A stretch of DNA of 64,000 nucleotides from NCBI RefSeq assembly GCF_000188155.2, contig NZ_KE124770.1:1-64000 (forward strand). The letters run 5' to 3'. The position numbers and the translations under genes are program-made. A model generated the notes under the pieces. That model saw nothing but the letters and a program-made list of their open reading frames with translations, searched no databases and was not told the DNA's origin. The DNA comes from Methylocystis sp. ATCC 49242 (GTDB lineage Bacteria; Pseudomonadota; Alphaproteobacteria; Rhizobiales; Beijerinckiaceae). This document shows positions 42,409-59,347 of this stretch, piece by piece. Each line of letters opens with the position of its first letter. Position 1 is the first letter of the stretch.

Positions 42409-43260
42409 ATGTCTCTCGGGACGCTCACTGAACACGCAGACGAGCTTTTTGTCGCGAAATATGTAAACTCCTCCGCGCATTTCGCGCCTGATCTCCCGAC
42501 GCTCGAGAGCAGCCTTCGCTCCTTCTCGCGGATGGACGAGGCGCGCGAAGCCCTTGCGGCGCTCGGAGGCCGCGCCTCCTGCCTCATTCAGGGATATACG
42601 GCTCCGCAGAATGTCGAGGCGCTGCGGCGCCGTTTGTCGGAGGCGGGCGTCGCGCGCGCCGACGTCGTCGCGGTCGATCTTCTCGATCTCCCGCGCATCT
42701 ACGATCGTCTCGGCGTCGGCATCCCAGATGTCGACTTTCTGCAGGGCGACGCCTGCGATCTTTCGGCGCTGATCGCGGACGCGGTCTTCGACATCGTCAT
42801 TCAGGACTTCACGCTCAACTGCCTGCCGCCGGTCCTGGCGCCCAAACTGTCGCGCGAGGCGCAGCGCGTGCTGAAAGCCGACGGTTTTGCGATGGTCAGT
42901 TTCACCGACGCGACCGGATTGCGCGAGCGTCCCGTGCTTCCCGCGACGAACGCGCTGCTGCGCCATGGCGTCGAATGGACATCGACGTTGACGGGACTGA
43001 TGGACGCGGCGGAGTCCGGCAGCCATTTCGATGAACTCTCAGCCGGCCTCATGGGCGCAACGCTCGCCGCGGGCGCCCGGGGCGAGCTGATTTTCGTCAC
43101 GCCGCCGTCCGGACGCTTCGAGTTCTTCGCGCCCGCCGACTCTACTTTCGAGATGCTGCGCCACGCGGGATTTCACTGCGTCGCCTTCGATCGCAGCATC
43201 GGGATCGATCCCGCCGGATTGCAATGCGCGCGATATCGCTGCCTGCTGCGCCCGATCTAG
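42409..43260 (+). CDS. SAM-dependent methyltransferase (class I fold)
   Basis: A 283-residue protein with a class I methyltransferase core. The first strand region is poorly conserved (ASCLIQGYTAPQNVEALRRR). It is followed by ADVVAVDLLDLPRIYDRLG (acidic end of strand 2), VDFLQGDACDLS, and the post-core VFDIVIQDFTLNCLPPVLAP with KLSREAQRVLKADGFAMVSF. The typical GxGxG loop is degenerate (LIQGYTAP), so binding should be tested. It converges on the Mur ligase-NRPS gene with 4 overlapping bases at the stops, hinting at related function. Confidence 0.7.
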   Translation: MSLGTLTEHADELFVAKYVNSSAHFAPDLPTLESSLRSFSRMDEAREALAALGGRASCLIQGYTAPQNVEALRRRLSEAGVARADVVAVDLLDLPRIYDRLGVGIPDVDFLQGDACDLSALIADAVFDIVIQDFTLNCLPPVLAPKLSREAQRVLKADGFAMVSFTDATGLRERPVLPATNALLRHGVEWTSTLTGLMDAAESGSHFDELSAGLMGATLAAGARGELIFVTPPSGRFEFFAPADSTFEMLRHAGFHCVAFDRSIGIDPAGLQCARYRCLLRPI

Positions 43261-46200
43261 GCGCAGGCCGAATCCCCTCCCGCCAGAATGGAGCGGATGG
43301 CTCCGGCGAGACTGCCGACGTTCGGAGGTTCGAAGAACTCGCCATGCTCGCCGGAAATGAAGTGAAGCGCATAACCTCCGGCATAGGCCGCGCGAAGGGC
43401 GGGATCCGGCTCCGATATCCGTCGCCTCGGATTGAAGCTGCTGTCTTCGCCGAAAATGAGATCGACGCGCTCGTCATACGGCCAGTAGCCGTCCTGCTCC
43501 ATGAGGATAAGGCGGTCGACGCGGCGCCCTTGCGCGCGCAAAGCCAAGGCCGTCGCCCGGGCAATGAGGCCGCCCTGACAATTGCCGCCGAGCGCGATCG
43601 CGCCTTCGGGCTGGATGGAGTTGATTTCCTGCGCGTAAAGCCGCGCAAGCGCTTCGATCGTGTCCGGCCTGTATTCAAATGCGAGATGGCCCGAGCGCAT
43701 GCCATGCGCCGGCTGATCGGGTCCCAGCTCCCCGGCGAGCGCGACAAGCTCGGGATAGGCCTGAAAGCACCAGAAGAGACCCCCGCGCCCACCCGCCTCA
43801 TTGAGCGTGACGATGAGTGACTCCGGCGTCCGCCGGGCGCCTTTCCAGCCGGCGAGATAGTTTCTGATCTTGCCCAGCGACGTCTCGAAATCGTCCATCG
43901 CGCCGGACTGCGTCGCCGCGCCATCATCGAGGGCCCTGCGAACGAAAGTCGCCATATGCGCCGCCGTCGCCAGCTGTTCGAACGCCTCGACCGGGAGCCG
44001 GACGTCGAATGCGTCTTCGACGGCGAGCGTCAGCGTCATGGCGGCGAGGGAGTCGCCCCCCGTCTCGAAAAAGTCGTCGTCGACGCCGAGCGCCGGCGCC
44101 CGCAACGCTTTCCGCCATATGTCGAGCAGGCGCCGTTCGATGTCGTCCCGCGGCGGCGCCGCGGGCCGCAGCATGGCTGCGAGGGGAACGAGCTGCGCGA
44201 GTTTGCGCCGGTCGAGCTTGCCGCCGACGGTGAGCGGCAGATCGGGCGCACGCAGGATGAGTCCTGGCGTCAGCGCCTTCGGCAGCCGCTTGTCGAGCTC
44301 GGCGCGGATGCGGGAGAAGTCGGCGTCGGCGGCCGCAGTCACATAGGCGACGAGTTGCGGCGGACCGCTCCTTTGCGAGGAGAGAACGACGGCGGCGCGT
44401 TCTACGCCGGAGCAGGCTTCGAGCTGCGTCTCGATCTCGACGGGCTCGAAGCGCACGCCGTTGATCTTGAGCTGCGCATCCTTGCGGCCGATGAATTCCA
44501 GCGATCCGTCGGAAAGCCGCCGGCCGAGATCGCCCGTGCGATACATTCTCTCGCCGGGGCGCGACGAGAAAATATCCGCGCCGAAACGCTCGTTCGTCAA
44601 TGCGGGGTCGCCGAGATAGCCGCGGCTGACGCCTCCGCCCGCTATGACGATTTCGCCAGTCTCGCCGTCGGGGACGATGTTTCCATTGTCATCGACGAGA
44701 TGAACGCGCGTGTCGCGAATGGGAAAGCCGATGACGCGCCCGGCGACTTCACCGGGACGGGAAGCGGCGTCCGCGTCGAGCAGGCGCGCGACGGTGGAAT
44801 AGATCGTCGTTTCGGACGGGCCGTAGAAATTCAGCGCGCTGCGCAGTCCGCGAGCCTCGCGAAGACGCGCGACGAGCGACGCGGGAACCGCTTCGCCGCC
44901 GACCATGATGAGGCGCAGCGAGACCGGAAGCGACGACGCCTCGATCAGCCGCTGCAAGACCGACGGCGTGGCGCCAAGCGCAGTGATCGCGGCCGCGTGT
45001 TTCGATTTCAGCAGGCTCGCGAGGTCACGCTCGATCAACAGCGCGCCGCCATGGGCGAGCGTCGTGAAGATCTGATGGACGCTGGCGTCGAAACTGATCG
45101 AATCGATAAAGGGCGCAAGCGCGAGATCCTCGGGCTGGATCAACTCCTCGACAGCGTAGTCGATGACATTCGTGACGTTGCGATGTTCGACGCCGACAAG
45201 ACGGCATTCTCCCGTCGAACCCGAGGTGAAAATCGCATAGGCGAGATTGCCGCCCGTCGCGGGGCAGGGCGGGGGCGCGGCGGCGGCGAGCGCGCGCCAG
45301 AAGCTTTCGATGTCGACGCAGTCCACGCCCGACAAACCGCCATGGCGCGGCGCTTCATCCGTGATGGCGAGCGCGGCTCCCGCGCGCATGAGCGCCGCAT
45401 CGATCCCTGGCCGCTCCATTTTCGGGTCGATCGGCGCGAATGCGCAGCCAGCTTTCAGCACGCCGATCATGAGGGCGACAAGTCGCGCGGATTTATTCAG
45501 GCGGAGCACGACGATGTCGTCGGGACGCAGGCCGCGTTTGATCAGCTCATGCGCGACGCGATCGGACGCCTTCGCAATGCCCGCGTATGTCCATGTCGTC
45601 TCTCCGTCGATGACGCAGGGCGCGGAGGGTTGAAGCGCTCCCATGCGTTCGAAACGCGAATGCAGGCGTTCGCCGCCATCGGCGAGCGGCGTCGGGGCAG
45701 GGGGCTGAATCACGGGCGCGGGCGGTCGTTCCCCGCACGGCTTTTGCTCCGATATTGCGGCGATTATCGCGGGTCCGCAACGCTGCGCGAGACCGGCGCC
45801 CATCGTCACGACGACGTCGCCGGGGCCGGCGAGAGCCGCGACGGTCGACGCCGCATCCGTCGGACCATTGCAACAGGCGAAGCGCAAGCCGGAGCGGCGA
45901 AACACATCATGCAAGAGCGCGTCGGAGGAATCCGCCGGAGTAGGCTCGCCGGCTCCGTCGACCGGAAGGACGATCGTGTAATCCGCCATCGAAAGCGCGC
46001 GGGCGTAATGCGTCGCGAGACGACAGATGCGCGCGTGCGACAGCGGTTCGACAATGGCGACGACCTTCCCGCCTGCTTCGGCTGAGTCGCGCGCGGCGGC
46101 GAGCGTCGCCGCGATCTCGGTCGGATGATGCGCGAAATCGTCGAATATGCGCACGCCGTCCGCTTCCCCAACCCGCTCCCATCTCCTGCCGACGGGGATG

Positions 46201-47159
46201 AAGCGCTCCAGCGCAAGGGCGGCGGCGTCGAAAGGCGCGCCGAGCGCATTCGCCAGTGCGAGGGCGCCGAGCGCGTTGGCGGCGTTATGCGCGCCGGGAG
46301 CTTTCAACCGAATGCGGCCAAGCGGCCGCCCCCATGCAATGGCGTCGAAAGCGACGGCGTCGCGCCCGCGCTCGATCCTGTCCGCGCGCCACGACGACTT
46401 GTCGCCAAATCCGTAAGTAACGGCGCGGGAACCGGGCTTTTCGGCCATTGCGGCGAGAAACGGATCGTCGCCGCAAAGAACGATATGGCCGTCACTCCGC
46501 GTCCTCTCGATCATCGCCGCAAAGGCCGCTTCGAGCCTGTCGCGTCCACCATAGTGCTCGCTGTGTTCGTCATCGACATTCGTCACGAGGCAATGGGCGG
46601 GCCGCACATGGTCGAGCGCGCGGAACGCCTCGCAGCTTTCCGCCACGAAGAGCGAACCTTCGCTCCAGCGCGCGTTGACGTCGCCGAGCGCAGGCGCGGC
46701 CGCGCCAATCGTGAAACCGGGCGAAAACCCCGCGTGTTCGAGGATTGCGGCGAGCATCGCCGCCGTCGTCGTCTTCCCGTGACTGCCGGCGACGCCGATG
46801 ACGTCGCGGCCATCCAGCAGATCCGCCAGCGCGCCTGCGCGCGAGCGAATGACGAGGCCCCGCTCGCGCGCCGCCTTCAGCTCGACATTGTCGCGCGGCA
46901 CGGCGGGGCTGAAGACGACGAGATCGGCCCGCCCGAGATTGTCGGCGGCGTGACCGACGCTGACCTCCGCCCCGATGTCGCGTAACCCGCGAAGCCTGTC
47001 GCCATCGACCTCGTCGCTGCCGGTGACACAGGCGCCGCTCTCGATGAACAGCCGCGCGAGCGCGCTCATGCCGGAGCCCTGAACGCCGACGAGATGGACG
47101 CGCCTGTGTCCGCAAATGCCGCGCCCGTCAGTCAATCGAAAGATCGCCCTTGACCGCAT
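43257..47159 (-). CDS. Mur ligase-NRPS (adenylation, carrier, thioesterase) fusion protein
   Basis: A protein of about 1300 residues joining two unlike enzymes (positions counted from a TTG three codons upstream). Residues 20-475 are a MurC/Mpl-type ligase: HLVGVQGSGMSALARLF, P-loop GVAGSHGKTTT (125-135), VTNVDDEHSEHYGG and DDFAHHPTEIAATL. Residues 500-985 are an NRPS adenylation domain: IFTSGSTGECRLVGVEH, FDASVHQIF, NFYGPSETT, YRTGDLGRRL and GGKLDR with the catalytic Lys about 984. A carrier domain follows (FFETGGDSLAAM, Ser about 1040). A thioesterase ends it, with GGNCQGGLIA giving Cys about 1197 as nucleophile and GEHGEFFEPP the His. There is no condensation domain. ATG 47159 overlaps the DUF218 gene. 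Confidence 0.88.
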   Translation of the reverse strand: MRSRAIFRLTDGRGICGHRRVHLVGVQGSGMSALARLFIESGACVTGSDEVDGDRLRGLRDIGAEVSVGHAADNLGRADLVVFSPAVPRDNVELKAARERGLVIRSRAGALADLLDGRDVIGVAGSHGKTTTAAMLAAILEHAGFSPGFTIGAAAPALGDVNARWSEGSLFVAESCEAFRALDHVRPAHCLVTNVDDEHSEHYGGRDRLEAAFAAMIERTRSDGHIVLCGDDPFLAAMAEKPGSRAVTYGFGDKSSWRADRIERGRDAVAFDAIAWGRPLGRIRLKAPGAHNAANALGALALANALGAPFDAAALALERFIPVGRRWERVGEADGVRIFDDFAHHPTEIAATLAAARDSAEAGGKVVAIVEPLSHARICRLATHYARALSMADYTIVLPVDGAGEPTPADSSDALLHDVFRRSGLRFACCNGPTDAASTVAALAGPGDVVVTMGAGLAQRCGPAIIAAISEQKPCGERPPAPVIQPPAPTPLADGGERLHSRFERMGALQPSAPCVIDGETTWTYAGIAKASDRVAHELIKRGLRPDDIVVLRLNKSARLVALMIGVLKAGCAFAPIDPKMERPGIDAALMRAGAALAITDEAPRHGGLSGVDCVDIESFWRALAAAAPPPCPATGGNLAYAIFTSGSTGECRLVGVEHRNVTNVIDYAVEELIQPEDLALAPFIDSISFDASVHQIFTTLAHGGALLIERDLASLLKSKHAAAITALGATPSVLQRLIEASSLPVSLRLIMVGGEAVPASLVARLREARGLRSALNFYGPSETTIYSTVARLLDADAASRPGEVAGRVIGFPIRDTRVHLVDDNGNIVPDGETGEIVIAGGGVSRGYLGDPALTNERFGADIFSSRPGERMYRTGDLGRRLSDGSLEFIGRKDAQLKINGVRFEPVEIETQLEACSGVERAAVVLSSQRSGPPQLVAYVTAAADADFSRIRAELDKRLPKALTPGLILRAPDLPLTVGGKLDRRKLAQLVPLAAMLRPAAPPRDDIERRLLDIWRKALRAPALGVDDDFFETGGDSLAAMTLTLAVEDAFDVRLPVEAFEQLATAAHMATFVRRALDDGAATQSGAMDDFETSLGKIRNYLAGWKGARRTPESLIVTLNEAGGRGGLFWCFQAYPELVALAGELGPDQPAHGMRSGHLAFEYRPDTIEALARLYAQEINSIQPEGAIALGGNCQGGLIARATALALRAQGRRVDRLILMEQDGYWPYDERVDLIFGEDSSFNPRRRISEPDPALRAAYAGGYALHFISGEHGEFFEPPNVGSLAGAIRSILAGGDSACA

Positions 47160-47727
47160 ATTCGCCAATGCGGCGCAACTCGCCCATCACGCGCTCGCGC
47201 CCGACAGGCGTGCGCCACCAGTCGTCCGCCTGAATGTCGGCGGGATGCTTAGGCGGCGTCATCAACAGAACGACGTCCTTCGGGAAATGCCGGCGAGCGG
47301 TCATGTAGGCGCGCCGGGCATGCAACGGCTTGCTGCAGATCGCCATGGAGCCGATGTTCGACCAGCCGATTTCATCGGCGATGAGTCTGTCGCTGAAGAC
47401 GAAATTCTCGAGCGTGTTGCGCGCGTGCGGCTCGACGAGAATCGCCGCCTCGGGCACGCCGGCGCTCAACGCGTAATCACGGTAGACGCGCCATTCCGGC
47501 TCCGAACCGTCTGCGGGTCCATGGCCGGTGACGACGATCCGGCGCGTCATTCCCTGCATATAGAGAGAAACGGCGGGAAGAATGTTGCTGATCGACGGAG
47601 AGCCGAGAACGAGCGCAACGTCCACATTCTCCGGCTGATGGCTGAGAAAGACGAGACGGGTGATGGCGTCCCGGGTCGCCTGTCCCGGCGCGGAATCGGC
47701 CTTCCCCGAAGGGAATCCTTCGACCAT
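47128..47727 (-). CDS. YdcF/DUF218-family protein
   Basis: A 199-residue protein of the SanA/YdcF/DUF218 group, linked by family association to cell-envelope precursors. Markers are VDVALVLGSPSISNILPAVS, TRRIVVTGHGP (the conserved G-H-G strand), ILVEPHARNTLENFVFS (the conserved Glu-x-x-x-x-Asn-Thr-x-Glu-Asn pattern) and SMAICSKPLHARRAYMTAR. No signal or membrane anchor is obvious in this start (ATG 47727); a GTG at 47793 would add 22 residues. It precedes and overlaps the Mur ligase-NRPS gene by about 32 bases, so they are translationally coupled. Confidence 0.75.
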   Translation of the reverse strand: MVEGFPSGKADSAPGQATRDAITRLVFLSHQPENVDVALVLGSPSISNILPAVSLYMQGMTRRIVVTGHGPADGSEPEWRVYRDYALSAGVPEAAILVEPHARNTLENFVFSDRLIADEIGWSNIGSMAICSKPLHARRAYMTARRHFPKDVVLLMTPPKHPADIQADDWWRTPVGRERVMGELRRIGEYAVKGDLSID

Positions 47728-48289
47728 TTTTTCCCCAGCCCCGCTGTTGACAAAACAAGATGAAGCCCAGGCGGCAAGCCGCTTCGACCGCACTAGAGGA
47801 GAAGGCCGGACTCCGCAACACGAAGGCGCCGCAGGGCGGCCCCATCCCCGCCGAACAGTCGCAGACTCGAAGCCTCCTCTCTATCCACCCGGCGCGATCG
47901 TCGGAGCTTCGAGCGGTTCTCGCCGCCTCGCGAGCCGGAACCGATGACAGGGTCCATTTCATACCCCCGGCGCGGCGTCATTTCCCGAAATCCCTTTTTT
48001 GCGAGGCTCCATCGGTTTTCATGGTTCCACGTGGCGATGGCTCGACCTGCGTCGTTCGCGACCGTTGTTCCTCGCGGACAGCCGCTCTAATTTATTGCGG
48101 ACGCCTGGATCGGAGCTGCGAGCGGGGGCCTGTCCATTCGCATTGCGCTCGGGAGCCCGGGCGCCATCCTTCTGCATAAGGCGAAGCTTGGCGGAGCTTC
48201 GCTGCGTCGCCAACAATTTCCGCGCGGCGACGAACGCCGCGAAGATCCCGGGGCTGCGCGAGAGAGCGCGATAAGTTTTCAGGAGCATC
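47728..48289. other. Divergent intergenic region between YdcF-like and P-type ATPase genes
   Basis: These 560 bases hold no supported gene; short frames on both strands are low-complexity. The region must carry the divergent promoters of the DUF218/Mur-NRPS operon and the ATPase-adaptor gene. No strong consensus pair was found by eye. Confidence 0.35.
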
Positions 48290-51200
48290 ATGGACGGATT
48301 GACAACCCGCGAAGCGCAGGAGCGCCTCGCAGAATTCGGCCCGAATGCGCTGCCGGAAGCGCGCCCCCCCTCCTTCGCGGCAGTCTTTTTCAGACAGTTT
48401 CTCAGTCCGCTGATTTATATTCTTGTCGGCGCGGCGGCTGTCGCGATGACGATCGGCGACGCCAAGGACGCCATCTTCATCGGCGTCGTGCTGATCATCA
48501 ACGGAATTATCGGCGCGGTTCAGGAATATTCCGCCGGCCAGGCGGCGGCCGCGCTGCGCGAACAGGATCAGCCGCGCGCCTTTGTCCTGCGCGACGGCGT
48601 GCAGCAGGAAATCGACGCGCGCGATGTCGTGCCGGGCGACATCGTGCTGCTCGAGGCCGGACGCCGGGCGCCCGCGGACATGCGGCTGATCGAAGCCATC
48701 GATCTGCGCTGCGATGAATCACTGCTGACGGGCGAGTCCCTGCCGGTGAAGAAGGTCGCGGCGACGAAGACGCAGGAGACGCCGCGCGACGGCATGGTCT
48801 TCGCGGGCTCGATGGTCACGCGCGGGCGCGGGGTCGGAGAAGCGACGGCGACGGGTCTCGCGACGGAAGTCGGCAAGATCGCCGGCGAACTCGTCAAGCC
48901 ATCCGCGTCCCAGCCGCCGCTGATCATCCGCATGGAGCGGTTTTCGAAGCTCATCGCCGTTCTCGTCGCCGTGGCCGTGGGCGTTCTGATGGTCGTCGGC
49001 TATCTGCGCCACATGGGGATCGTCGAGCTCTTCATGATGGCGGTGGGCCTCGCCGTCGCGGCCATCCCCGAAGGGCTTCCGGTCGCGATCGCCGTGGCGC
49101 TGGCGATCGGCATGCGGCGCATGGCCAAGGCCAATGTGATCGTGCGCAAGATGGCGGCGGTCGAGTCGCTCGGCTCCTGCACCATGATCGCCACCGACAA
49201 GACCGGCACGCTCACGCGCAACGAGCTGACCGTCACCGACATCGTGTTGCCGGACGGCTCGGCCCTGTCGCTCGAGCCCGGGGAGGGCGTCGAATCCTAT
49301 TCCTTCCGCGGCGCGACGCGCAACGAGCAGGCCGATCTCCTGCTCGCGGCGCTGCTGCGCGCGGCGGCGCTGCCCAACGAGGCGGAAATCCGTCGCGAAA
49401 AGGAAGAGATCAAGGGCATAGGCGACACGGTCGACGTCGCCTTGCTGGTCGCCGCGTACAGAAGCGGCGTCGCGCATGAGGATCTGCGCGCGCGCTATCC
49501 GCTCGTCAAACGCATCCCCTACGAGCCGGACCTCAAATATGCGGCCTCCTTCCATCTCCACGAGGAAGAGCGCGCCGTTCGCGTTTTTGCGAAGGGCGCG
49601 CCGGAGACGCTCATCGCCATGGCCGGCCGGATGGACGTCGGCGGCGCATTGGCCCCGATCGACCGCGAGGCGCTCTGGCGCCAGAAAGACGAACTGTCGG
49701 CGAGGGGTCTGCGCGTCCTTGCCTTCGCCGAAGGCGAGATCGCGCCGGAGCCCGACGATGGCTATGGCCCGAGCCATCTCGAAAACCTCGTCTTTCTCGG
49801 CCTCGTCGGCATGCATGATCCGCTGCGGCCGGAAGTGCGGCGCGCCATCGGCGAATGCCACGACGCCGGCGTCGTCGTGGCGATGGTCACGGGCGACGCG
49901 CCCGGCACGGCCGCCGCCATCGCCAGAGAGGCGGGCATGCACTTTTCCCCGGACCAGATCGTCACGGGCGACGAGGTGCGTCGCGCCGAGGAGGCGGGCG
50001 AGGCGTCGCTCGACGCCTTGACCAGGCGCGCCCGCATCTACGCCCGCGTCGAGCCGATACAGAAACTCGCCATTGTCCTGTCGCTCGCGCGCAACGGTCA
50101 TTTCGTCGCCGTCACGGGAGACGGCGTCAACGACGCGCCGGCGCTCAAACATGCGCATGTCGGGGTCGCCATGGGCAAGCAGGGCACCGACGTCGCCAAG
50201 GAAAGCGCCGACATCATCATCGCCGACGACAATTTCGCGTCGATCGTGCGCGGCGTGCTGGAGGGCCGCGTCGCCTACGCCAACATCCGCAAGGTCATCT
50301 TCCTTCTGGTCTCGACCGGCGCGGCCGAATTGCTGCTCTTCCTGCTCACGATCCCGGTCGGCCTGCCCATGCCGCTCCTGCCCGTGCAGCTGCTGTGGCT
50401 CAACCTCGTCACCAATGGCGTCCAGCATATCGCTCTCGCCGCCGAAAAGCCCGAGGGCGACGAGCTGACCTATCCGCCGCGCAAGCCCGAGGAGCCGATT
50501 TTCGACCGCGTGATGATTGTTCGCAACCTCTATTCGGCGATCGTCATGGCGGGCGTCGGCTTCGGCCTGTTTTACTGGCTGATCGCGCAGGGCTACGAGA
50601 CGAATCACGCGCGCAACCTGCTGCTTCTGCTCTTCGTCATCTTCGAGAATTTCCAGGCGCTGAATGCGCGCTCGGAACATCATTCCCTGTTCTACAGAGG
50701 CCTGTTCTCCAGTCCGCTGCTCGTGGCGAGCGTTTTCGGCGCCCAGGCCATCCATCTTCTGGCGTCGCATGTTCCGGGCCTTGCCGACACGCTGCGGATC
50801 TGGCCGCCGACGCTTGCCGAATGGGGCGCCTTGCTCGTCGCCGGCTCATCTCTGCTTGTCGTGATGGAGCTCGAGAAATGGTGGAGCGAGCGCCACAGGC
50901 GCCCGAAGACCCGGCCCGAAACAGAGATCGCGATCGCCGCGCCGTCCCCCATTCGCCGCTACGCGCCTCTGGCTGCGGGCCTCGCGCTCGCTGTCGGCGT
51001 CGCCGCAGGCGGAGCGCTCTATTGGCGGGCCATGCGCGAGGAGGCGAGCCTTCAGCTGGCGACGGTCGAGCGCGGCGATATCGTCCGGACCGCCGATGTG
51101 GCGGGCGTCGTCGTTTCCGCGCCGCCGGCCGAGGCGGCTGCGCCGGTCGGGGGGACGATCGATGCGGCGGCGTGCGCCGTCGGCGACCGGATCGACGCCG

Positions 51201-52021
51201 GGCGCGTCTGCGCAAGGATCATCCCTCCCGATCTCCAGGCCGAGGTCGCCCGCGCCCGTCGGGCGTTCGATGCCGCGCAGGCGGCGCAGCGCAAACGCGC
51301 GGATGCGTTCGAACGCGCCAAGGCGGCCTATGAAAGCGCAACGAGCAAGCGGAAGGCGAGAACGCGCGCCGCAGCGGCGCGCGCGGAGTCCCGCCTGGCG
51401 CAGGCGCAGGCCGAGACGAGCCGGCGCGAAGCGGCGTTGCGCGCGGCGCTGGAGAAGGGCGCGGCGGTCGTCGCGCCCGTCGGCGGAGCCATCCGCGATA
51501 GCCGTCTGGAGGCAGGCGGGAAGGCGAAGGCGGGCGACATATTGTTCCGCGTCGATCCGGCTGACAGGGACGCCTTGCACATCGAAGCCGCGCCGGAGGC
51601 GGGCGCGGCCCTGCAGGCGCGGCCCGGCGCCACGGTGACGGCGACCCTCGCCGCCGATGCGGCGCAGCGAATCGAGGGCAGGCTGCGCGAGATCGTCCCG
51701 ACACAGCGCGGCCCGAGGATCGTCGTCGACGCGCCGGCGCCGGCTTCCGCCGCGCAGCCGGGCGGGGCGGCGTCGCTTCGCATCGAGCTCGACCGGCGGG
51801 AGAATGTGCTGCGCGTCCCGAGCCGCGCCCTGACTTACGTCCCCGCCGCAAGCGCGCCGGCTGCGTCGCCGCCCGCGGGATGGGCGCGCGTGTGGGCGTG
51901 GCGCGAGGGCGCTGCGGTTCCCGTCGATGTGAAGCCGGGACTCGACGACGGAGCCTTCGCCGAGATCAGCGACGGCGCGCTCGAGGCGGGCGATCGGGTC
52001 ATCGTCGACGGGGAAAGGTGA
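48290..52021 (+). CDS. P-type cation ATPase fused to HlyD/MacA-type membrane-fusion domain
   Basis: A 1243-residue fusion. Residues 1-860 form a full P2-type (Ca2+/cation) ATPase: actuator CDESLLTGESLPVKK (TGES about 147), the membrane motif AIPEGLPVAIAVAL (about 260), phosphorylation site DKTGTLTRNE (Asp about 303), GDGVNDAPALKHAHVG (about 610), and ten helices. After KWWSERHRRPKTRPE an extra helix (RRYAPLAAGLALAVGVAAGG, about 890-912) leads to a 330-residue adaptor domain. That domain has lipoyl-like halves (AAPVGGTIDAAACAVGDRI, APVGGAIRDSRLEAGGKAKA), a coiled coil rich in Ala, Arg and Lys, and a barrel end (LRVPSRALTYVP). Usual P2 ATPases stop near 900 residues. The transported ion is unknown. 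Confidence 0.88.
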   Translation: MDGLTTREAQERLAEFGPNALPEARPPSFAAVFFRQFLSPLIYILVGAAAVAMTIGDAKDAIFIGVVLIINGIIGAVQEYSAGQAAAALREQDQPRAFVLRDGVQQEIDARDVVPGDIVLLEAGRRAPADMRLIEAIDLRCDESLLTGESLPVKKVAATKTQETPRDGMVFAGSMVTRGRGVGEATATGLATEVGKIAGELVKPSASQPPLIIRMERFSKLIAVLVAVAVGVLMVVGYLRHMGIVELFMMAVGLAVAAIPEGLPVAIAVALAIGMRRMAKANVIVRKMAAVESLGSCTMIATDKTGTLTRNELTVTDIVLPDGSALSLEPGEGVESYSFRGATRNEQADLLLAALLRAAALPNEAEIRREKEEIKGIGDTVDVALLVAAYRSGVAHEDLRARYPLVKRIPYEPDLKYAASFHLHEEERAVRVFAKGAPETLIAMAGRMDVGGALAPIDREALWRQKDELSARGLRVLAFAEGEIAPEPDDGYGPSHLENLVFLGLVGMHDPLRPEVRRAIGECHDAGVVVAMVTGDAPGTAAAIAREAGMHFSPDQIVTGDEVRRAEEAGEASLDALTRRARIYARVEPIQKLAIVLSLARNGHFVAVTGDGVNDAPALKHAHVGVAMGKQGTDVAKESADIIIADDNFASIVRGVLEGRVAYANIRKVIFLLVSTGAAELLLFLLTIPVGLPMPLLPVQLLWLNLVTNGVQHIALAAEKPEGDELTYPPRKPEEPIFDRVMIVRNLYSAIVMAGVGFGLFYWLIAQGYETNHARNLLLLLFVIFENFQALNARSEHHSLFYRGLFSSPLLVASVFGAQAIHLLASHVPGLADTLRIWPPTLAEWGALLVAGSSLLVVMELEKWWSERHRRPKTRPETEIAIAAPSPIRRYAPLAAGLALAVGVAAGGALYWRAMREEASLQLATVERGDIVRTADVAGVVVSAPPAEAAAPVGGTIDAAACAVGDRIDAGRVCARIIPPDLQAEVARARRAFDAAQAAQRKRADAFERAKAAYESATSKRKARTRAAAARAESRLAQAQAETSRREAALRAALEKGAAVVAPVGGAIRDSRLEAGGKAKAGDILFRVDPADRDALHIEAAPEAGAALQARPGATVTATLAADAAQRIEGRLREIVPTQRGPRIVVDAPAPASAAQPGGAASLRIELDRRENVLRVPSRALTYVPAASAPAASPPAGWARVWAWREGAAVPVDVKPGLDDGAFAEISDGALEAGDRVIVDGER

Positions 52022-52528
52022 GCGCCTTGACCAGCGACGCTTTCAATATGACCGCAGCGGAGAAAGCGGGATAGCCGATCGATCCGGACGATTTTCGGCG
52101 CGGCGCGGAGAACCGCGTCGACGCCACCTGGAGTGAATACGGGATCGTCCGCCTGATTTGCGCACGCCCAGATTTTGAGCAACCGCGCGACCTTCTATGC
52201 GAAGGCGCCTTCAAAGACGGCGTCGCCGCAAATCGGCCGACAGCCCTTCACGAGCCTTGGCGGCTCCGCAAAGCAGCTGATTCCAGCCAGATGCGACCCG
52301 ACCTCGACCGCGGCGCGAAGGCTGGCCCGGTTCGTGCTTTATCATTTCCAGTCAACGACGACCTCCGGTCCGCCGGACACGAGCCCGACGATGGGTTCGT
52401 ATCACAGATGTCGCCTGAAGGACTCCCGTATGGGAATCCGATGCGACGATGGTCGTCTTGCCCTGCTCCCCCAGCCAAGCCGATCGACCTGTGGACGGAC
52501 CGCGAGGACGCTTAGCAGGGTCGGTAAC
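52022..52528. other. Leader/promoter region of the nitrate assimilation operon
   Basis: I find no gene here; the open frame from 52175 is an upstream extension of nirB without family residues. The stretch should carry the operon promoter and any leader control. I could not identify a sigma54 -24/-12 pair or a clear NasR/NasT-type hairpin by eye. Confidence 0.35.
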
Positions 52529-55009
52529 ATGTCCATCGCCAGAGATAAAAACAAACGCCCCAGGCTCGTCGTCATCGGCAACGGCATGGCCGCCGGCCGC
52601 GTGCTCGAGGAATTGTTCGAGCGCCGCGCCGATGCGTTCGACGTTGTCGTCTTCGGGTCGGAGCCGCGCGTCAATTACAACCGCATCATGCTGTCGCCGG
52701 TTCTGGCCGGCGAGAAAAGCTACGAAGACATCATCATTCACGACGACGGCTGGTATGCGCGCCACGGCGTCGCGCTTCACAAGGGCGAGACCATCGTCGC
52801 CATCGATCGAAACGCGAGGAGCGTGGCGACGGCGTCGGGGCGTGTCGAGACCTACGACAAATTGCTCATAGCCACCGGCTCCACGCCGATCGCCATCCCC
52901 GTGCACGGCGTCAATCTGCCGGGCGTCGTCACTTTCCGCGATCTCGACGATGTCGACGTCATGTTGCGGCAGGCTGGAAAGGGCGGCCGCGCCGTCGTCA
53001 TCGGCGGCGGTCTGTTGGGACTGGAGGCGGCCGCGGGCCTCAAGGCCAAGGGCATGGAGGTCAGCGTCGTTCATCTGATGCCGACGCTGATGGAGCGCCA
53101 GCTCGATCCTTCGGCCGGCTATCTCCTGCAAAAGGCGATCGAGAAGCGCGGCATCGAGGTGCTGACCGGCGCCAATACGCAGGCCATTCTCGGCGACGCG
53201 AAGGTCGAAGGCGTGAAGCTCGACGACGGCCGCGTCATTCCCTGCGAGATGGTGGTGATGGCGGTCGGCATTCGTCCGAACGCCAGCCTCGCCAGGACTG
53301 CCGGTCTCGCCGTCGAACGCGGCGTCATGGTGGACGACGCGATGCGCACGAGCGATCCCGACATCTACGCGGTCGGAGAATGCGTCGAACATCGCGGCCA
53401 ATGCTACGGTCTTGTCGCGCCGCTTTTTGAAATGGCGAAAGTCGTCGCCGCGCAACTCGTCGAGGATGGCGCAGCGAGCTACGAGGGTTCGGTCACCTCC
53501 ACGAAGCTCAAGGTCTCCGGCATCGACCTCTTTTCGGCAGGCGATTTCTCCCAGGGCGACGACGACGACGAAATCGTGCTGCGCGATCCGTCGCGCGGAG
53601 TCTACAAGCGGATCGTGCTGCGCGAAAATCGGGTCAAGGGCGCTGTGCTCTATGGCGAGACCGACGACGGCCCCTGGCTCTTCGATCTGCTGAAGAAACA
53701 GACGGACGTCGGGGCGATGCGCGACACGCTGATCTTCGGTCAGGCCTATCAGGGAGGGTCTCCGCTGGACCCTACGGCGGCCGTTGCAGCCTTGCCGGAT
53801 GATGCGGAAATCTGCGGCTGCAACGGCGTGTGCAAGGGCGCGATCGTCTCGGCGATCACGGGCGGGGGACTCACCTCGCTCGACGAGGTGCGCGCGCAAA
53901 CGAAGGCCTCCGCCTCCTGCGGTCAATGCACGTCGAAAGTCGAAACGCTCATCGTCAGCGTGCTCGGCGACGAATACAAAGGCGCCGCGCGGCGGCCGAT
54001 GTGCAAATGCACCGACCTCACGCATGAGGAAGTTCGCGGCTTCATCGTGTCGAAGACGCTCGACTCCATGCCCGCCGCCATGCAGGAACTAGCCTGGAAG
54101 ACCTCCTGCGGCTGTCCGACCTGCCGCCCGGCGCTGAATTATTATCTGCTCTGCGCTTTCCCGCTGACCTATCGCGACGACGGCCAGTCGCGTTTCGTCA
54201 ACGAGCGCGTGCACGCCAACATTCAAAAGGATGGAACCTTCTCCGTCGTTCCGCGCATGTGGGGCGGTCTGACCACGCCCGACGAATTACGCGCCATCGC
54301 CGATGTGGCGGAGCGTTTCAACATCCCGACCGTCAAGGTCACCGGCGGGCAGCGGATCGATTTGCTGGGCGTGAGGAAGGAGGATCTGCCCGCCGTCTGG
54401 GCGCAGCTCAATCGCGCGGGCCTCGTGTCCGGCCACGCCTATGCGAAGGGCCTGCGCACGGTGAAGACCTGCGTGGGCAAGGAATGGTGCCGGTTCGGCA
54501 CGCAGGACTCGATGGGCCTCGGCGTCAGGCTCGAACGCCTGCTCTGCGGATCGTGGACGCCGGCGAAAGTGAAGCTTGCCGCCTCCGGCTGTCCGCGAAA
54601 CTGCGCCGAAGCGACGGTGAAGGACATCGGCGTCATTTGCGTCGACTCCGGCTACGACATCCATATCGCCGGCGCCGCGGGGCTTCATGTGCGCGCCACC
54701 GATCTTCTCGGCCATGTCGAGACCGAAGAGGAGGCGCTGGAATATGTCGCCGCCGTCCTTCAGCTCTATCGGGAAGAGGCCGCCTATCTCGACCGCCTCT
54801 ACAAATGGGTCGAGAAAACGGGGCTCGAGCGCGTGCGCCGTCTGATCATGGAGGATCACGACGCGCGCAAGGCGCTCTATGAGCGCTTCCTCGTCTCGCA
54901 GCGTGCGGTGCGCAAGGACCCATGGGCGGAGCGCGCGGCGGGCTTCGGCTCGCAGGAGTTCACCCCCCTCGCCATCGTCGCGCCCATCGCGCAAATCGCT
55001 GCGGAGTAA
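52529..55009 (+). CDS. nirB: Assimilatory nitrite reductase large subunit
   Basis: This siroheme enzyme reduces nitrite to ammonium with NAD(P)H in the cytoplasm. The 826-residue product has an FAD/NAD(P)H domain (VVIGNGMAAGRVLEEL, AVVIGGGLLGLEAAAGLKAK). A BFD-like [2Fe-2S] site follows (EICGCNGVCKGAIVSA, ASCGQCTSKVE), with a second CKC/CGCPTC cluster-like region. The siroheme/[4Fe-4S] C-terminal part has TCVGKEWCRFGTQDS and ASGCPRNCAEATVKDIG. ATG 52529 (MSIARDKNKRP) fits the family. It is the first gene of the nitrate operon. Confidence 0.95.
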   Translation: MSIARDKNKRPRLVVIGNGMAAGRVLEELFERRADAFDVVVFGSEPRVNYNRIMLSPVLAGEKSYEDIIIHDDGWYARHGVALHKGETIVAIDRNARSVATASGRVETYDKLLIATGSTPIAIPVHGVNLPGVVTFRDLDDVDVMLRQAGKGGRAVVIGGGLLGLEAAAGLKAKGMEVSVVHLMPTLMERQLDPSAGYLLQKAIEKRGIEVLTGANTQAILGDAKVEGVKLDDGRVIPCEMVVMAVGIRPNASLARTAGLAVERGVMVDDAMRTSDPDIYAVGECVEHRGQCYGLVAPLFEMAKVVAAQLVEDGAASYEGSVTSTKLKVSGIDLFSAGDFSQGDDDDEIVLRDPSRGVYKRIVLRENRVKGAVLYGETDDGPWLFDLLKKQTDVGAMRDTLIFGQAYQGGSPLDPTAAVAALPDDAEICGCNGVCKGAIVSAITGGGLTSLDEVRAQTKASASCGQCTSKVETLIVSVLGDEYKGAARRPMCKCTDLTHEEVRGFIVSKTLDSMPAAMQELAWKTSCGCPTCRPALNYYLLCAFPLTYRDDGQSRFVNERVHANIQKDGTFSVVPRMWGGLTTPDELRAIADVAERFNIPTVKVTGGQRIDLLGVRKEDLPAVWAQLNRAGLVSGHAYAKGLRTVKTCVGKEWCRFGTQDSMGLGVRLERLLCGSWTPAKVKLAASGCPRNCAEATVKDIGVICVDSGYDIHIAGAAGLHVRATDLLGHVETEEEALEYVAAVLQLYREEAAYLDRLYKWVEKTGLERVRRLIMEDHDARKALYERFLVSQRAVRKDPWAERAAGFGSQEFTPLAIVAPIAQIAAE

Positions 55010-55015
55010 CGCGCC

Positions 55016-55354
55016 ATGAACGATATGTCGCCGAACTGGTTCGACATCGGACCGCTCGATCAGATCCCTCAGCGCGGCGCGCGGCTCGTGAAGACGCCCC
55101 GGCGCAACATCGCCGTCTTCCGCACCGCCGGCGACGAGGTCTTCGCGCTCGAAAATCGCTGCCCGCACAAGGGCGGCCCGTTGAGCGAAGGGATCGTGCA
55201 CGGACGAAAGGTCGCCTGCCCCCTGCACAACTGGGTGATCGATCTCGAAAGCGGTACAGCAACGGGCGCCGATCACGGCTGCGCGCGCAGCTTTCCGGTG
55301 AAGATCGAGAAAGGGCGCATCTATCTCGAAATGGGCGTCGCGGTTACGCCATAA
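55016..55354 (+). CDS. nirD: Nitrite reductase small subunit (Rieske-like)
   Basis: A 112-residue partner of NirB with the NirD Rieske-like fold. Unlike many NirD proteins it keeps a full Rieske motif: ENRCPHKGGPLSEG and VACPLHNWVIDLESG (Cys-x-His and Cys-x2-His). It may therefore bind a [2Fe-2S] cluster. It starts 6 bases after nirB and is followed 11 bases later by the nitrate reductase gene. Confidence 0.93.
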   Translation: MNDMSPNWFDIGPLDQIPQRGARLVKTPRRNIAVFRTAGDEVFALENRCPHKGGPLSEGIVHGRKVACPLHNWVIDLESGTATGADHGCARSFPVKIEKGRIYLEMGVAVTP

Positions 55355-55365
55355 GGGAGACGGCC

Positions 55366-58041
55366 GTGAACGCACCGTCGAAGATCATCCGCACGACCTG
55401 CCCCTATTGCGGGACCGGATGCGGCGTCAAGGCCTTGGTGTCGAGCGCCGGCGCCGTGCATGTTTCCGGCGACGAGGAGCACCCGGCGAATTTCGGCAGG
55501 CTCTGCGTCAAGGGCGCCGCGCTCGCCGAAACGCTGACCCACGAAGGGCGTCTGCTTCACCCCCGGATCAACGGCCAGCGCGCGAGCTGGAACGAGGCGC
55601 TGTCGCGCGTCGCGCGCGGCTTTCGCGCGGCTGTCGACGCGCATGGGCCAGACTCGGTCGCCTTCTATGTTTCCGGACAGATGCTCACGGAAGACTATTA
55701 TGTCGCCAACAAGCTGATGAAGGGCTTCATCGGCTCGGCCAATATCGACACCAATTCGCGCCTCTGCATGGCGTCTTCCGTGGCCGGCCACAAGCGCGCC
55801 TTCGGCGCCGACGTCGTCCCCAATTGCTACGAAGATCTCGAACTCGCGGATCTCGTCATTCTCGTCGGCTCCAATCTCGCCTGGTGCCATCCCGTGCTGT
55901 TCCAGCGACTGGAGCGCGCGAGGGCCGCGCGGCCGGACATGCGCATCGTCAATATCGATCCGCGCCGCACGGCGACGAGCGAGATTTGCGATCTCCATCT
56001 CGCGCTCTCGCCCGGCTCCGACGTGGCGCTCTTTCTCGGCCTTCTGCGCCACCTCGAACAGACCGGAAGACGCGACGCGGCCTATGTCGCGCGCCACACG
56101 CGCGGACTCGAAGACGCGCTCGCCGTCGCCGACGCATGGGACGTTGCGGCTGTCGCGAAGGCGACCGGACTCGAGCCGACAGCCATCGAACGGTTTTTCG
56201 GACTTTACGCCGAAAACGCGCGCGTCGTCACCGTCTACTCCCAGGGCGTCAATCAGTCCGTCTGCGGCGTCGACAAGGTCAATGCGATCATCAATTGCCA
56301 TCTCCTGACGGGGCGCATCGGCAAGCCGGGCGCCGGGCCTTTTTCAGTGACCGGGCAGCCGAACGCCATGGGCGGGCGCGAGGTCGGCGGACTGGCCAAC
56401 CAGCTCGCCTGCCACATGGAGCTCGACAATCCGCAGCATCGCGACATCGTTCGGCATTACTGGCGCTCGCCAACCATCGCGAACCGGGCCGGTCTCAAGG
56501 CGATCGATCTGTTCAAAGCGGTCGGCGACGGCGAGATCAAGGCGCTGTGGATCATCGGCACCAATCCGGTCGACAGCCTGCCCGAAGCCGATCGCGTGAA
56601 AGCCGCGCTGGCGTCCTGCCCCTTCGTTGTCGTCTCCGACGTCATGGAGCGCACGGACACGACGGCCTTCGCGCATGTTCTGCTGCCCGCGCGCGCATGG
56701 GGCGAGAAGGACGGCGTCGTCACGAATTCGGAACGGCGCATTTCCCGCCAGAGGCCGCTTCGCGCGGCTGCGGGCGAAGCGATGCCGGATTGGTGGAGCG
56801 TCTGCCGCGTCGCGAAGCTCATGGGTTTTGCGGAGGGCTTCGACTACGGCGGGCCCTGCGACATATTCCGGGAATATGCCGGCCTCTCGGGGCGTCTCAA
56901 CAATGGTTCGCGCGATTTCGACATTTCGGCCTGCGCGGATATTTCTCAGGCCGACTATGATCGCCTCGAACCGTTTCAATGGCCCCTCCCCAGGGATGCG
57001 GCGCCGAACGACGAGCCGAAAAGGTTCTTCGCCGAGGGCGGATATTTCACGCCGGACGGGCGCGCCCGGCTTGTCGCAACACCCTTCCAGCCACCCCGGA
57101 GTCGCAAGAACGACGGCGCGTTCATTCTCAACACCGGGCGCATCCGCGACCAGTGGCACACGATGACGCGCACCGGCGTTTCGCCGCGCCTGTCGCAACA
57201 TATCGCGGAGCCATTCGTCGAAATACATCCGTCCGACGCTCGCGCCCTCGACATATCGCCGGCGAGCCTCGTACGGCTTTCCAACGCGCATGGCGCCGTT
57301 ATCCTTCGCGCGCTCGTGACGGATCGCCAAAGAGAGGGCTCGGTCTTCGCGCCCATGCACTGGACGGGGCGCAATTCGAGCGACTGCAGGATCGACGCGC
57401 TCGTCGAGGCGAACACGGACCCCCTGTCCGGACAGCCCGACTCCAAAGGCTCGCGCGTCGACGTCGAGCCCTGGCCCGCCGCCTGTTTCGGCTTCGCGCT
57501 CATGCGCGATGAACCCGACCATGTCGAGGCGGACTACTGGGCTCTTGCGCGCACGACCTTCGGCTGGCGCATGGAGCTTGCCGGACTGAACCAGCCGCAG
57601 GACTTCGAGCGCTACGCCCGCGAGCTTTTCGGCCTGAACGGCGATTGCGAGATCGCCAGCGTCGCGGATGAAGCGCGCGGCTCCTTCCGCCTTCTGGCGG
57701 TTCGCGACGGGCGCGCACAGAGTCTCCTCATCGTTTCGCGCGCGCCGGTCGCGGCCGCGCGCGCCTTCCTTTGCGAGAGTTTCGCGACCCGCGAACCGAA
57801 AGCTCTGATGGGGCTGCTCGCCGGGCGGCCGCCGGCCAACGCCGACTGCGGCCGGACGATCTGCGTCTGCCACGGCGTCGGCGCAAGAGAAATTGAAACG
57901 GCTATAGAGGATCGCGCGCATACGGTCGACGCCATCGGGCGCAAGACCCGCGCGGGAACCGGCTGCGGCTCGTGCCGGCCCGAAATTCAGCGCCTCATCA
58001 ACGACGCGACCGCGGCGAAACGCGAGCTGGCGCCAGCGTGA
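55366..58041 (+). CDS. nasA: Assimilatory nitrate reductase catalytic subunit (molybdopterin)
   Basis: An 891-residue cytoplasmic Mo-bisMGD enzyme that reduces nitrate to nitrite. The N-terminal [4Fe-4S] site is TCPYCGTGCGVKAL with RLCVKGAALAE. Molybdopterin motifs include SVAFYVSGQMLTEDYYVANK, NIDTNSRLCMASSVAGHKRA and GVNQSVCGVDKVNAIIN. The C-terminal BFD-like [2Fe-2S] domain reads ICVCHGVGAREIETAIE and GCGSCRPEIQRLI, the usual electron entry in NAD(P)H- or ferredoxin-linked forms. The start is GTG 55366 after AAGGGAGA; longer frames upstream overlap nirD and nirB and are not real. The symbol nasA is also used for a transporter in some bacteria. Confidence 0.93.
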   Translation: MNAPSKIIRTTCPYCGTGCGVKALVSSAGAVHVSGDEEHPANFGRLCVKGAALAETLTHEGRLLHPRINGQRASWNEALSRVARGFRAAVDAHGPDSVAFYVSGQMLTEDYYVANKLMKGFIGSANIDTNSRLCMASSVAGHKRAFGADVVPNCYEDLELADLVILVGSNLAWCHPVLFQRLERARAARPDMRIVNIDPRRTATSEICDLHLALSPGSDVALFLGLLRHLEQTGRRDAAYVARHTRGLEDALAVADAWDVAAVAKATGLEPTAIERFFGLYAENARVVTVYSQGVNQSVCGVDKVNAIINCHLLTGRIGKPGAGPFSVTGQPNAMGGREVGGLANQLACHMELDNPQHRDIVRHYWRSPTIANRAGLKAIDLFKAVGDGEIKALWIIGTNPVDSLPEADRVKAALASCPFVVVSDVMERTDTTAFAHVLLPARAWGEKDGVVTNSERRISRQRPLRAAAGEAMPDWWSVCRVAKLMGFAEGFDYGGPCDIFREYAGLSGRLNNGSRDFDISACADISQADYDRLEPFQWPLPRDAAPNDEPKRFFAEGGYFTPDGRARLVATPFQPPRSRKNDGAFILNTGRIRDQWHTMTRTGVSPRLSQHIAEPFVEIHPSDARALDISPASLVRLSNAHGAVILRALVTDRQREGSVFAPMHWTGRNSSDCRIDALVEANTDPLSGQPDSKGSRVDVEPWPAACFGFALMRDEPDHVEADYWALARTTFGWRMELAGLNQPQDFERYARELFGLNGDCEIASVADEARGSFRLLAVRDGRAQSLLIVSRAPVAAARAFLCESFATREPKALMGLLAGRPPANADCGRTICVCHGVGAREIETAIEDRAHTVDAIGRKTRAGTGCGSCRPEIQRLINDATAAKRELAPA

Positions 58042-58066
58042 AATTCCGGTTTTGAAAGGAGCAGAC

Positions 58067-59329
58067 ATGAAACTCGACGACTTCAAAAAAGCCGGCCATT
58101 GGCCGACGCTGCTTGCGGCGTTTCTCTATTTCGACATCAGCTTCATGGCCTGGGTCTCTCTCGGACCGCTGATGGTCTACATCACGAAGGACATGCATAT
58201 CCCTGTCGAGGACAAGCTGTCGCTCGTCGCGATCCCCGTTCTCGGCGGCGCCATTTTCCGCATGCCGCTCGGTATTCTCGCGGACACGATCGGCTCCAAG
58301 CGCGCCGGAATCGCCGCCCAGGTCATCGTGATATTCGCGGTTTCTCTGGTCGCCGTCTTCGGGCTGACCTGTCCGGCGGCAATCGCATTGTTCGGCGTTT
58401 CGCTGGGCGTCGCCGGCGCGTCCTTCGCGGTCGCCTTGCCGCAGGCGGGCCGCTGGTATCCGCCGCAATATCAGGGCGTGGTGATGGGCATAGCCGGCGC
58501 CGGCAACATGGGCGTCGTGCTCGACACCCTTTTCGCGCCGTGGATCGCCGAAACCTTCGGATGGCGGGCGGTCTATGGCGTGCTGCTCGCCCTCATGGTT
58601 CTGGTCGCCGTAATCTATGCGATCATCGCCAGGGATCCGCCGGGCGCGAAAACGACGATCAGCCTCTCCGACTATGGCAAGATCCTGCTCGACTCGGACA
58701 GCCGCTGGTTCATGTTTTTCTACTTCATCACCTTCGGCGGCTTTGTCGGCCTCGCGTCGGCGCTGCCGCTCTACTTCACCACGCAATATCATGCGAACGG
58801 CGTCGCCGCGGGCCTCATGGTCGCGCTGATCGTCGCTTTCGGCTCCGGCTTCCGTCCCGTCGGCGGTTATATCGCCGACCGCATCGGCGGCGTGAAGACC
58901 CTGTCCTTCCTGTTCCTGATCGTCTCCGCCTGCTACTTCGCCATCGCCTTTCTGCCGGCGGGTCCCGCGCCGGCGGCAGGCGCGCCGGGCTGGCGACTGA
59001 CCGAGCTTCCGCAAATCGCCTTTGTGGCGGTGGCGCTGTTCTCGCTCGGCGTGCTTTGCCTCGGCATGGGCAATGGCGCGGTGTTCCAGCTGTTGCCGCA
59101 GAGGTTCCGGCGGGAAATCGGCGCGATGACGGGGCTCGTCGGCGCGGCGGGCGGTCTTGGCGGCTTCTTCCTGGCCAAGACGCTGGCCTTCTCCAAGGGA
59201 GCGACCGACAATTTCGCGGCGGGGTTCATGTTCTTCGGACTACTTGCGCTGCTCGGCCTCATCGGCTTGCTTGTCGTGAAGACCCGCTGGCGTACCACCT
59301 GGGGCGCCGTGTCGGGCGCGAGAATCTAG
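58067..59329 (+). CDS. Nitrate/nitrite transporter (MFS, NarK/NasA-type)
   Basis: A 420-residue, twelve-helix major facilitator. Markers include FDISFMAWVSLGPLMVYITK, GILADTIGSKRAGIAAQ and the nitrate signature segment GVSLGVAGASFAVALPQAGRW. The second signature is AGAGNMGVVLDTLFAPWIAE. ATG 58067 (MKLDDFKKAGHWP) follows GAAAGGAG with 5-8 bases spacing; a TTG at 58052 lies within that site. It is 25 bases after the nitrate reductase gene, so uptake and reduction are co-expressed. Confidence 0.93.
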   Translation: MKLDDFKKAGHWPTLLAAFLYFDISFMAWVSLGPLMVYITKDMHIPVEDKLSLVAIPVLGGAIFRMPLGILADTIGSKRAGIAAQVIVIFAVSLVAVFGLTCPAAIALFGVSLGVAGASFAVALPQAGRWYPPQYQGVVMGIAGAGNMGVVLDTLFAPWIAETFGWRAVYGVLLALMVLVAVIYAIIARDPPGAKTTISLSDYGKILLDSDSRWFMFFYFITFGGFVGLASALPLYFTTQYHANGVAAGLMVALIVAFGSGFRPVGGYIADRIGGVKTLSFLFLIVSACYFAIAFLPAGPAPAAGAPGWRLTELPQIAFVAVALFSLGVLCLGMGNGAVFQLLPQRFRREIGAMTGLVGAAGGLGGFFLAKTLAFSKGATDNFAAGFMFFGLLALLGLIGLLVVKTRWRTTWGAVSGARI

Positions 59330-59347
59330 TCCGCCCAGAGGTCGATT

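Follow-up and report, generated by a model that had tools for sequence, protein, structure and literature searches.

To our knowledge, peptide synthetases are generally held to require a condensation (C) domain for acylating a carrier-bound amine. The MysE-type enzyme of shinorine biosynthesis has no C domain: made up of adenylation (A), carrier (T) and thioesterase (TE) domains, and having no Mur domain either, it attaches an amino acid to an acceptor that is small. Among the Mur ligases, E. coli Mpl couples a tripeptide. Here we describe a gene of Methylocystis sp. ATCC 49242 that in one frame encodes a MurC-type ligase followed by A, T, and TE domains, with no C domain. It lies on contig NZ_KE124770.1, of which the first 64,000 nucleotides (forward strand) were analyzed; this whole stretch is referred to as the window, and positions in it are given without further label. 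We suggest that the protein may be a one-module peptide synthetase in which the Mur ligase takes the place of the C domain, with the TE handing the product on to a large acceptor, perhaps one of the cell envelope. Sequence comparison and structural modeling make this possible, if somewhat short of an even chance.

Papers are cited by their PubMed Central numbers.

Domain Architecture of the Fusion Protein

The gene and its domains are located as follows.

43257..47168 (-), Mur ligase-A-T-TE fusion protein of 1303 residues; the stop codon ends at 43257 and an alternative ATG lies at 47159
45792..47099 (-), MurC-type ligase domain, residues 24-459, placed by Pfam, NCBIfam, and the structural model
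44199..45656 (-), A domain, residues 505-990, with specificity residues read as DAHGIVFIYK
43941..44135 (-), T domain, residues 1012-1076, with attachment residue Ser1040 (Ser in 52/52 rows)
43269..43856 (-), TE domain, residues 1105-1300, with the proposed triad Cys1197-Glu1224-His1275 and an 11-residue stretch replacing the lid

The frame is uninterrupted and gives 1303 residues when read from a TTG at 47168 and 1300 residues from the ATG. Pfam models matched above their cut-offs in the Mur part (Mur_ligase, 24-119; Mur_ligase_M, 126-306; Mur_ligase_C, 328-459) and downstream of it (AMP-binding, 507-852; PP-binding, 1012-1076; Thioesterase, 1168-1223), while AMP-binding_C fell slightly under its cut-off (22.5 vs. 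24.5). The NCBIfam murC equivalog model scored 354.9 bits (cut-off 335.1) and AA-adenyl-dom 345.6 (cut-off 317.4). No Pfam match to Condensation was found in the fusion protein at E <= 0.001; the A and T domains of a canonical nonribosomal peptide synthetase (NRPS) elongation module are present without the C domain that precedes them there. The domain search therefore agrees with a preliminary description, made by a model from the letters of the DNA, which had read the frame as a MurC-type ligase with A, T, and TE domains and no C domain. Both motifs quoted in it, GSHGKTTT and DDFAHHPTEIAATL, were found in the protein.

We compared the protein with its relatives in 52 aligned rows, made up of the window protein, 46 database proteins, and five loci (L010, L011, L013, L089, and L139). 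The rows differ as a set from the 52 database proteins described below, and several of them are near-identical to one another. The fragments P0005, P0006, P0127, P0130, P0139, and P0140 were left out of the row counts, L009 and L012 are not among the rows, and L140 was dropped because a wrong frame had been taken for it. Lys132, Glu177, Glu180, His202, Asp344, His347, Asp694, Lys984, Ser1040, and Cys1197 were invariant (52/52). The last four of these, together with a TE acid and a TE His in 51/52 rows each, identify the second part as an NRPS-like A-T-TE module by sequence. The key catalytic residues are retained across the alignment, with one TE as the exception.

The preliminary description had allowed for a sequencing artefact joining two genes and for inactive Mur and A domains, and had proposed a search for homologues with the same domain order. 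Such homologues were found, down to 31-32% identity. Because the Mur-A-T-TE order recurs in these sequences, an assembly error is excluded as the source of the fusion. Taken as one alternative, an assembly artefact or a decaying pseudogene has a negligible probability: nothing in the window speaks for it, a degenerate TE is known in one relative (P0030), and the same frame with invariant catalytic residues in many sequences stands against it.

The Mur Domain and Its Amino-Acid Site

Four motifs of the Mur domain are referred to here.

46764..46787 (-), P-loop GSHGKTTT, residues 128-135, with Lys132 in 52/52 rows
46626..46640 (-), ESCEA (EADES in most MurCs), residues 177-181, with Glu177 and Glu180 retained
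46122..46142 (-), DDFAHHP, residues 343-349, with Phe345 at the position of MurC Tyr346
46029..46049 (-), EPLSHAR, residues 374-380, without the MurC His376-Arg377 pair

An AlphaFold2 model of the domain had a mean predicted local distance difference test (pLDDT) value of 94.5 and a template modeling score (TM-score, by query length) of 0.94 to HiMurC (1p3d). The three-domain Mur fold and the score over the curated cut-off both identify the domain as of the MurC kind. The residues assigned to ATP, metal, and the substitute of the carbamoyl-lysine (PMC3060825) were kept: Lys132, Thr134, Glu177, Glu180, His202, Asn298, Asp344, and His347 in 52/52 rows and Arg329 in 51/52, with Thr or Ser at residue 133. 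The Gly-rich loop for uridine diphosphate (UDP) was found in 49-50 of the 52 rows, and Asp52 in 52/52.

The amino-acid site was found to be altered. In HiMurC, His376, Arg377, Arg380, Tyr346, and His348 are the presumed contacts of the incoming amino acid (PMC3060825). In the fusion family Tyr346 and His376 are absent from every row (0/52 each) and Arg377 is present in 2/52, while Arg380 (47/52) and His348 (52/52) are largely or fully kept. A sample of 24 MurC domains, comprising the one of the host, 19 from MurC fusion proteins, and four from kin genomes, had Tyr346 and His376 in 24/24 and Arg377 in 22/24; for the 19 MurC fusions taken separately the counts were 19/19 for Tyr346 with His376 and 17/19 for Arg377. 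Outside the 52 rows, L140 and L012 have DDFAHHP and EPQLHSR, and L009 has DDFAHHP. E. coli Mpl lacks the same three residues as the fusion family, with Phe instead of Tyr346 and neither His376 nor Arg377. Because the residues for a free amino acid are largely lost, as in the peptide-coupling Mpl, the alignment fits a ligase that retains acyl-phosphate chemistry and would accept a nucleophile with a masked carboxylate, as in an aminoacyl thioester.

The likeness to Mpl is also the starting point of a different explanation, in which a small aminoacyl product would be released by the A-T-TE part and then ligated by the Mur domain to UDP-N-acetylmuramic acid (UDP-MurNAc) in an editing or refilling of peptidoglycan precursors. 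NagZ-like glycoside hydrolase family 3 (GH3) proteins and DUF218 proteins as partners (see below) would suit it, as does the loss of Tyr346, His376, and Arg377. However, the score with the Mpl model was 179.9 bits where the cut-off is 388.7, the insert that follows EADEYD in E. coli Mpl is absent from the fusion, and a lone A-T-TE module would be unable to make a peptide. We regard this explanation as improbable.

The host genome encodes a separate MurC elsewhere (36% identical), and a separate MurC was found in 5/5 kin genomes. The fusion is therefore not the plain MurC of the host, and this candidate function was rejected.

P0208 and P0209 are MurC-MurB fusions that have EADEYD and QPHT, compared to EADESD and QPHR in most MurCs.

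The Thioesterase and the Position of the Mur Domain

The nucleophile of the TE is Cys1197 instead of a Ser in all 52 rows. The stretch at the position of the lid has 11 residues, likewise in 52/52 rows, whereas characterized NRPS TEs have lids of 54-101 residues (PMC11298585). An acid is present at position 1224 in 51/52 rows; position 1242 holds Asp in 23/52 and Glu in 10/52. A Cys TE of the strained-ring-forming type, such as those of SulM (beta-lactam) and ObiF1 (beta-lactone), was considered and rejected because of the 11-residue lid stretch and the acid after strand 6; the SulM and ObiF1 TEs have lid helices and a triad acid after strand 7 (PMC11298585).

One kindred TE was found in a glycan locus. 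After the fusion of Paracoccus, the best two plasmid matches were C-A-T-TE modules carrying the same TE. Since these related modules have a C domain at their N-terminus, the Mur domain stands in the position of C. This position, together with the lost clamp residues of the Mur site, makes it likelier that what the Mur domain acylates is the amine of the amino acid loaded on the carrier.

The opposite direction was suggested in the preliminary description, which proposed a bond-forming logic different from that of standard NRPSs and a possible transfer of the amino acid from the carrier to a ligase product or a small acid. The first suggestion is upheld. For the second the sequence leans the other way, and we keep a form close to it as a rival: the Mur domain would couple a sugar acid to a free amino acid or peptide (not L-Ala) as an amide, to which the TE would then add the amino acid of the carrier at a hydroxyl or an amine. 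Each part keeping its full and separate catalytic set, a TE nearly or wholly lidless, as suits a large acceptor, and the kindred TE of the glycan locus are all consistent with this. Against it, the residues by which MurC grips a free amino acid are mostly gone, and the kindred modules have at their N-terminus a C domain, the kind that acts on a carrier-bound amine. This order of events is in our judgment rather unlikely.

Stand-alone relatives of the Cys thioesterase were seen at L119 12145-12957 (+), L130 8987-10111 (-), and L131 375-1367 (+). An annotated AMP-binding gene lies near the first; by eye, an AMP-binding-like gene lies near the second and a radical-SAM-type gene near the third. 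L091 3-3737 (+) is the end of an NRPS that has GGNCQG and continues into a C-terminal extension; by eye, it lacks the usual TE His. An NRPS on a plasmid of Methylomagnum ishizawai, L110 10564-16620 (+), has the order C-A-T-TE (Cys) and then a sulfotransferase domain and tetratricopeptide repeats (TPR) in one chain.

Distribution of the Fusion Family

A search with the window protein gave 32 proteins of the Mur + A type (P0001-P0031 and P0116), a few of them without one end, among the best 120 of 3468 matches. A profile search added 20 fusion proteins (P0121-P0140, some of them fragments) among the best 120 of 588 matches, so that kindred fusion proteins number at least 52 across both searches, fragments included. 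Ranked below these proteins among the matches listed were ordinary NRPSs and fusions of MurC with Ddl, MurB, or MurG. Two further searches with the window protein used a cut-off of 1e-120, at which distant members would be missed.

Only a few hosts are named, namely Falsiroseomonas, Xinfangfangia, Pararhodobacter, Sphingobium, a Rhodobacteraceae, and metagenome-assembled genomes of a Baltobacteraceae and a Rhodobacterales. A fusion homologue is carried by plasmid pAMI4 of Paracoccus aminophilus, and a fusion at >= 80% coverage was present in 1 of 72,556 plasmid records. Profile searches of genomes found a full-length fusion in no genome but that of the host among 385 of its class and among 39 of its genus. 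They found the fusion in 3/295 genomes of the family to which the Pararhodobacter marinus genome belongs and in 1/94 genomes of the genus that includes the one of Sphingobium sp. D43FB. These counts are lower bounds, because the candidates scored per genome were the best 2 (class), 2 (Pararhodobacter family), 7 (Sphingobium genus), or 16 (genus of the host). No relative of the fusion was found in the viral contigs scanned. The fusion family is small and patchily distributed.

Two Kinds of Adenylation Domain

The A domains of the family are of two kinds, type I in 33 rows, including that of the window, and type II in 18 or 19 rows. The specificity positions were set by hand on GrsA motifs; read in this way, most type I rows have D[AS]HG.. 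and most type II rows DVGS.., patterns that point to no one substrate. In a tree with 130 other NRPS A domains, the two types formed separate clades (support 100 and 98), and two changes are required by the well-supported branches alone. A branch (support 77) parts 23 MurCs from the Mur domains of the fusions, all of which lie on one side of it. Within the family, a single branch divides the two types in the A tree and likewise in the TE tree; three changes are needed in the Mur tree, one of them forced by well-supported branches. Because the A domains form two clades while the Mur domains share one side, the simplest account of the trees suggests that the A domain, perhaps with the TE, was exchanged within a Mur framework that was kept.

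This bears on whether the two halves act together at all. They might be independent enzymes, fused merely for joint expression, and the complete residue sets of both would allow that. However, the fusion persists in relatives as far away as 31% identity, and the A domain was seemingly exchanged without breaking it. Independent halves are accordingly a very unlikely explanation.

Genes Beside the Fusion

The fusion gene has a neighbor on either side.

47128..47793 (-), DUF218 (SanA/ElyC/YdcF-type) gene, directly upstream, with 32 bases in common with the fusion as read from its ATG
42409..43260 (+), methyltransferase-like gene (Pfam), beside the fusion and convergent with it

The DUF218 match is well above its Pfam cut-off (72.1 vs. 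27.6 bits). A DUF218 partner was found in 9/9 loci examined, upstream of the fusion in eight (window, L010, L011, L012, L013, L089, L139, and L140) and fused to its N-terminus in L009. The domain also occurs on eight proteins from the search with the window protein, among the matches listed, and on P0139. In E. coli, SanA affects peptidoglycan and ElyC the synthesis of enterobacterial common antigen, and a Thr-His-Glu triad has been proposed for DUF218/SanA (PMC12176290). In an alignment of seven partners with one another, columns with Thr, His, and Glu, which may or may not correspond to that triad, are invariant.

A GH3 gene lies downstream of the fusion in 6/9 loci (L010, L013, L089, L139, L140, and L133, the contig on which the L012 protein has its C-terminal half). 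All six have a type II A domain. Three GH3 proteins scored 152-159 bits against the NagZ model NF003740, which is below its cut-off of 207. The best solved relative of the Paracoccus partner is a GH3 beta-N-acetylglucosaminidase. The host has three GH3 genes elsewhere, and one of them, on contig C6, is most like the partner GH3s.

A methyltransferase-like gene also lies next to the L009 homologue, but BLASTP showed no similarity between it and the one in the window. The latter was considered as a partner and is probably not part of the system.

Proposed Mechanism

In the pathway that we propose, the A domain would activate one amino acid and load it onto the carrier. The other substrate of the Mur domain would be an acid, most likely a UDP-sugar acid resembling UDP-MurNAc; the domain would phosphorylate it at its carboxylate and join the acyl phosphate to the free amine of the amino acid on the carrier. 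The nearly lidless Cys TE would act last, handing the acyl-aminoacyl group on to an acceptor that is large and probably a sugar or some other component of the envelope. The DUF218 protein and, in 6/9 loci, the NagZ-like GH3 may act on the same sugar-linked material. That the Mur domain replaces C in just this manner, giving a UDP-sugar-acyl-aminoacyl thioester on the carrier which the TE transfers to a glycan or other envelope acceptor, is put forward as a tentative proposal, with the odds leaning against it.

A number of observations weigh against these proposals. The EADESD motif of MurC reads E.CEA[FHY] in all rows and differs from both MurC and Mpl. The acid partner may therefore not be UDP-MurNAc, and UDP-MurNAc itself is doubtful as the acid. 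The His that contacts uracil in MurC is present in 30/52 rows only; Mpl likewise lacks it (PMC3060825). With the amino-acid clamp lost, the nucleophile could just as well be a free peptide or a different free amino acid, and the MurC-type domains P0208 and P0209 (2/24) are also without Arg377. No model places the carrier at the Mur site. The TE of P0030 has lost its acid and His, and a kindred TE occurs in a Phaeobacter locus without glycan genes. A GH3 gene does not adjoin the fusion in the window, in L009, a short contig (both type I), or in L011 (type II). The single Mur clade is supported at 77 only, and the 130 A domains of comparison were drawn by searches with the fusion family itself.

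If the replacement of C by a Mur ligase is true, an acyl-phosphate ligase, probably acting on a nucleotide sugar, ties the metabolism of cell-wall precursors to thiotemplate synthesis, and possible muramyl-type natural products would be ranked low by genome mining based on C domains. There is a sizeable minority chance of new chemistry. The idea is directly testable because the family is small and its domains are separable.

Plasmid Context and Other Genes of the Window

The contig has 68,082 bases and is probably a plasmid, since plasmid-type RepB and ParA-type partition genes are present (Pfam). The nearest plasmid records to positions 36000-60000 are from Methylocystis iwaonis, with 78.9% identity over 32%. 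Genes of the nitrite reductase type, for a molybdopterin oxidoreductase, for a major facilitator superfamily (MFS) protein, and for a PP2C-plus-kinase protein follow in a row at 52175-61054 (+) (Pfam); the block is 78.9% identical to a nitrate/nitrite block of the M. iwaonis plasmids. A P-type cation ATPase continues in the same frame into an HlyD/CusB-type membrane-fusion adaptor at 48290-52021 (+), an unusual joining of pump and adaptor (Pfam). A topoisomerase VI B-type protein with transducer and ATPase domains is encoded at 12349-14019 (-), on what is seemingly a bacterial plasmid. Histidine kinase A, response regulator, and guanylate/adenylate cyclase domains are joined in one chain at 61991-63610 (-).

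Comparison With Known Systems

The preliminary description knew of no characterized system with this layout, and no description of a Mur-A-T-TE architecture was found in one open-access library. The available parts of PMC7601586 and PMC2812497 make no mention of such a protein, and the operon of a Mur ligase gene with a cyclodipeptide-synthase-like gene (PMC2922099) is a different system. The DUF218 partner, the Cys for Ser and the near-absent lid of the TE, and the altered amino-acid site of the Mur domain go beyond the preliminary description.

The fusion resembles MurC in its fold (TM-score 0.94), its ATP and metal residues, its UDP loop, and a score that passes the murC equivalog cut-off. 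It differs by carrying A-T-TE, by the changed EADESD motif, and by the loss of Tyr346 and His376 in 52/52 rows and of Arg377 in 50/52. With Mpl it shares Phe for Tyr346, Gly for Thr at residue 151, and the missing His376-Arg377 pair, whereas its score is far below the Mpl cut-off and the insert after EADEYD is absent. The plasmid modules of Methylomagnum ishizawai and Rhodobacter sp. CZR27 have the same A-T-TE order (36% and 35% identity over A-T-TE) and share the GGNCQG TE of the fusion, and they have a C domain where the fusion has Mur. The TEs of SulM and ObiF1 differ from that of the fusion in both lid and place of the acid, which in the fusion is conserved after strand 6. MurC-Ddl, MurC-MurB, and MurG-MurC likewise hold MurC in a larger polypeptide, with cell-wall enzymes as partners. 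The parts of the fusion thus belong to known families, whereas their combination, and the likely replacement of a C domain by a Mur ligase, appear to be new.

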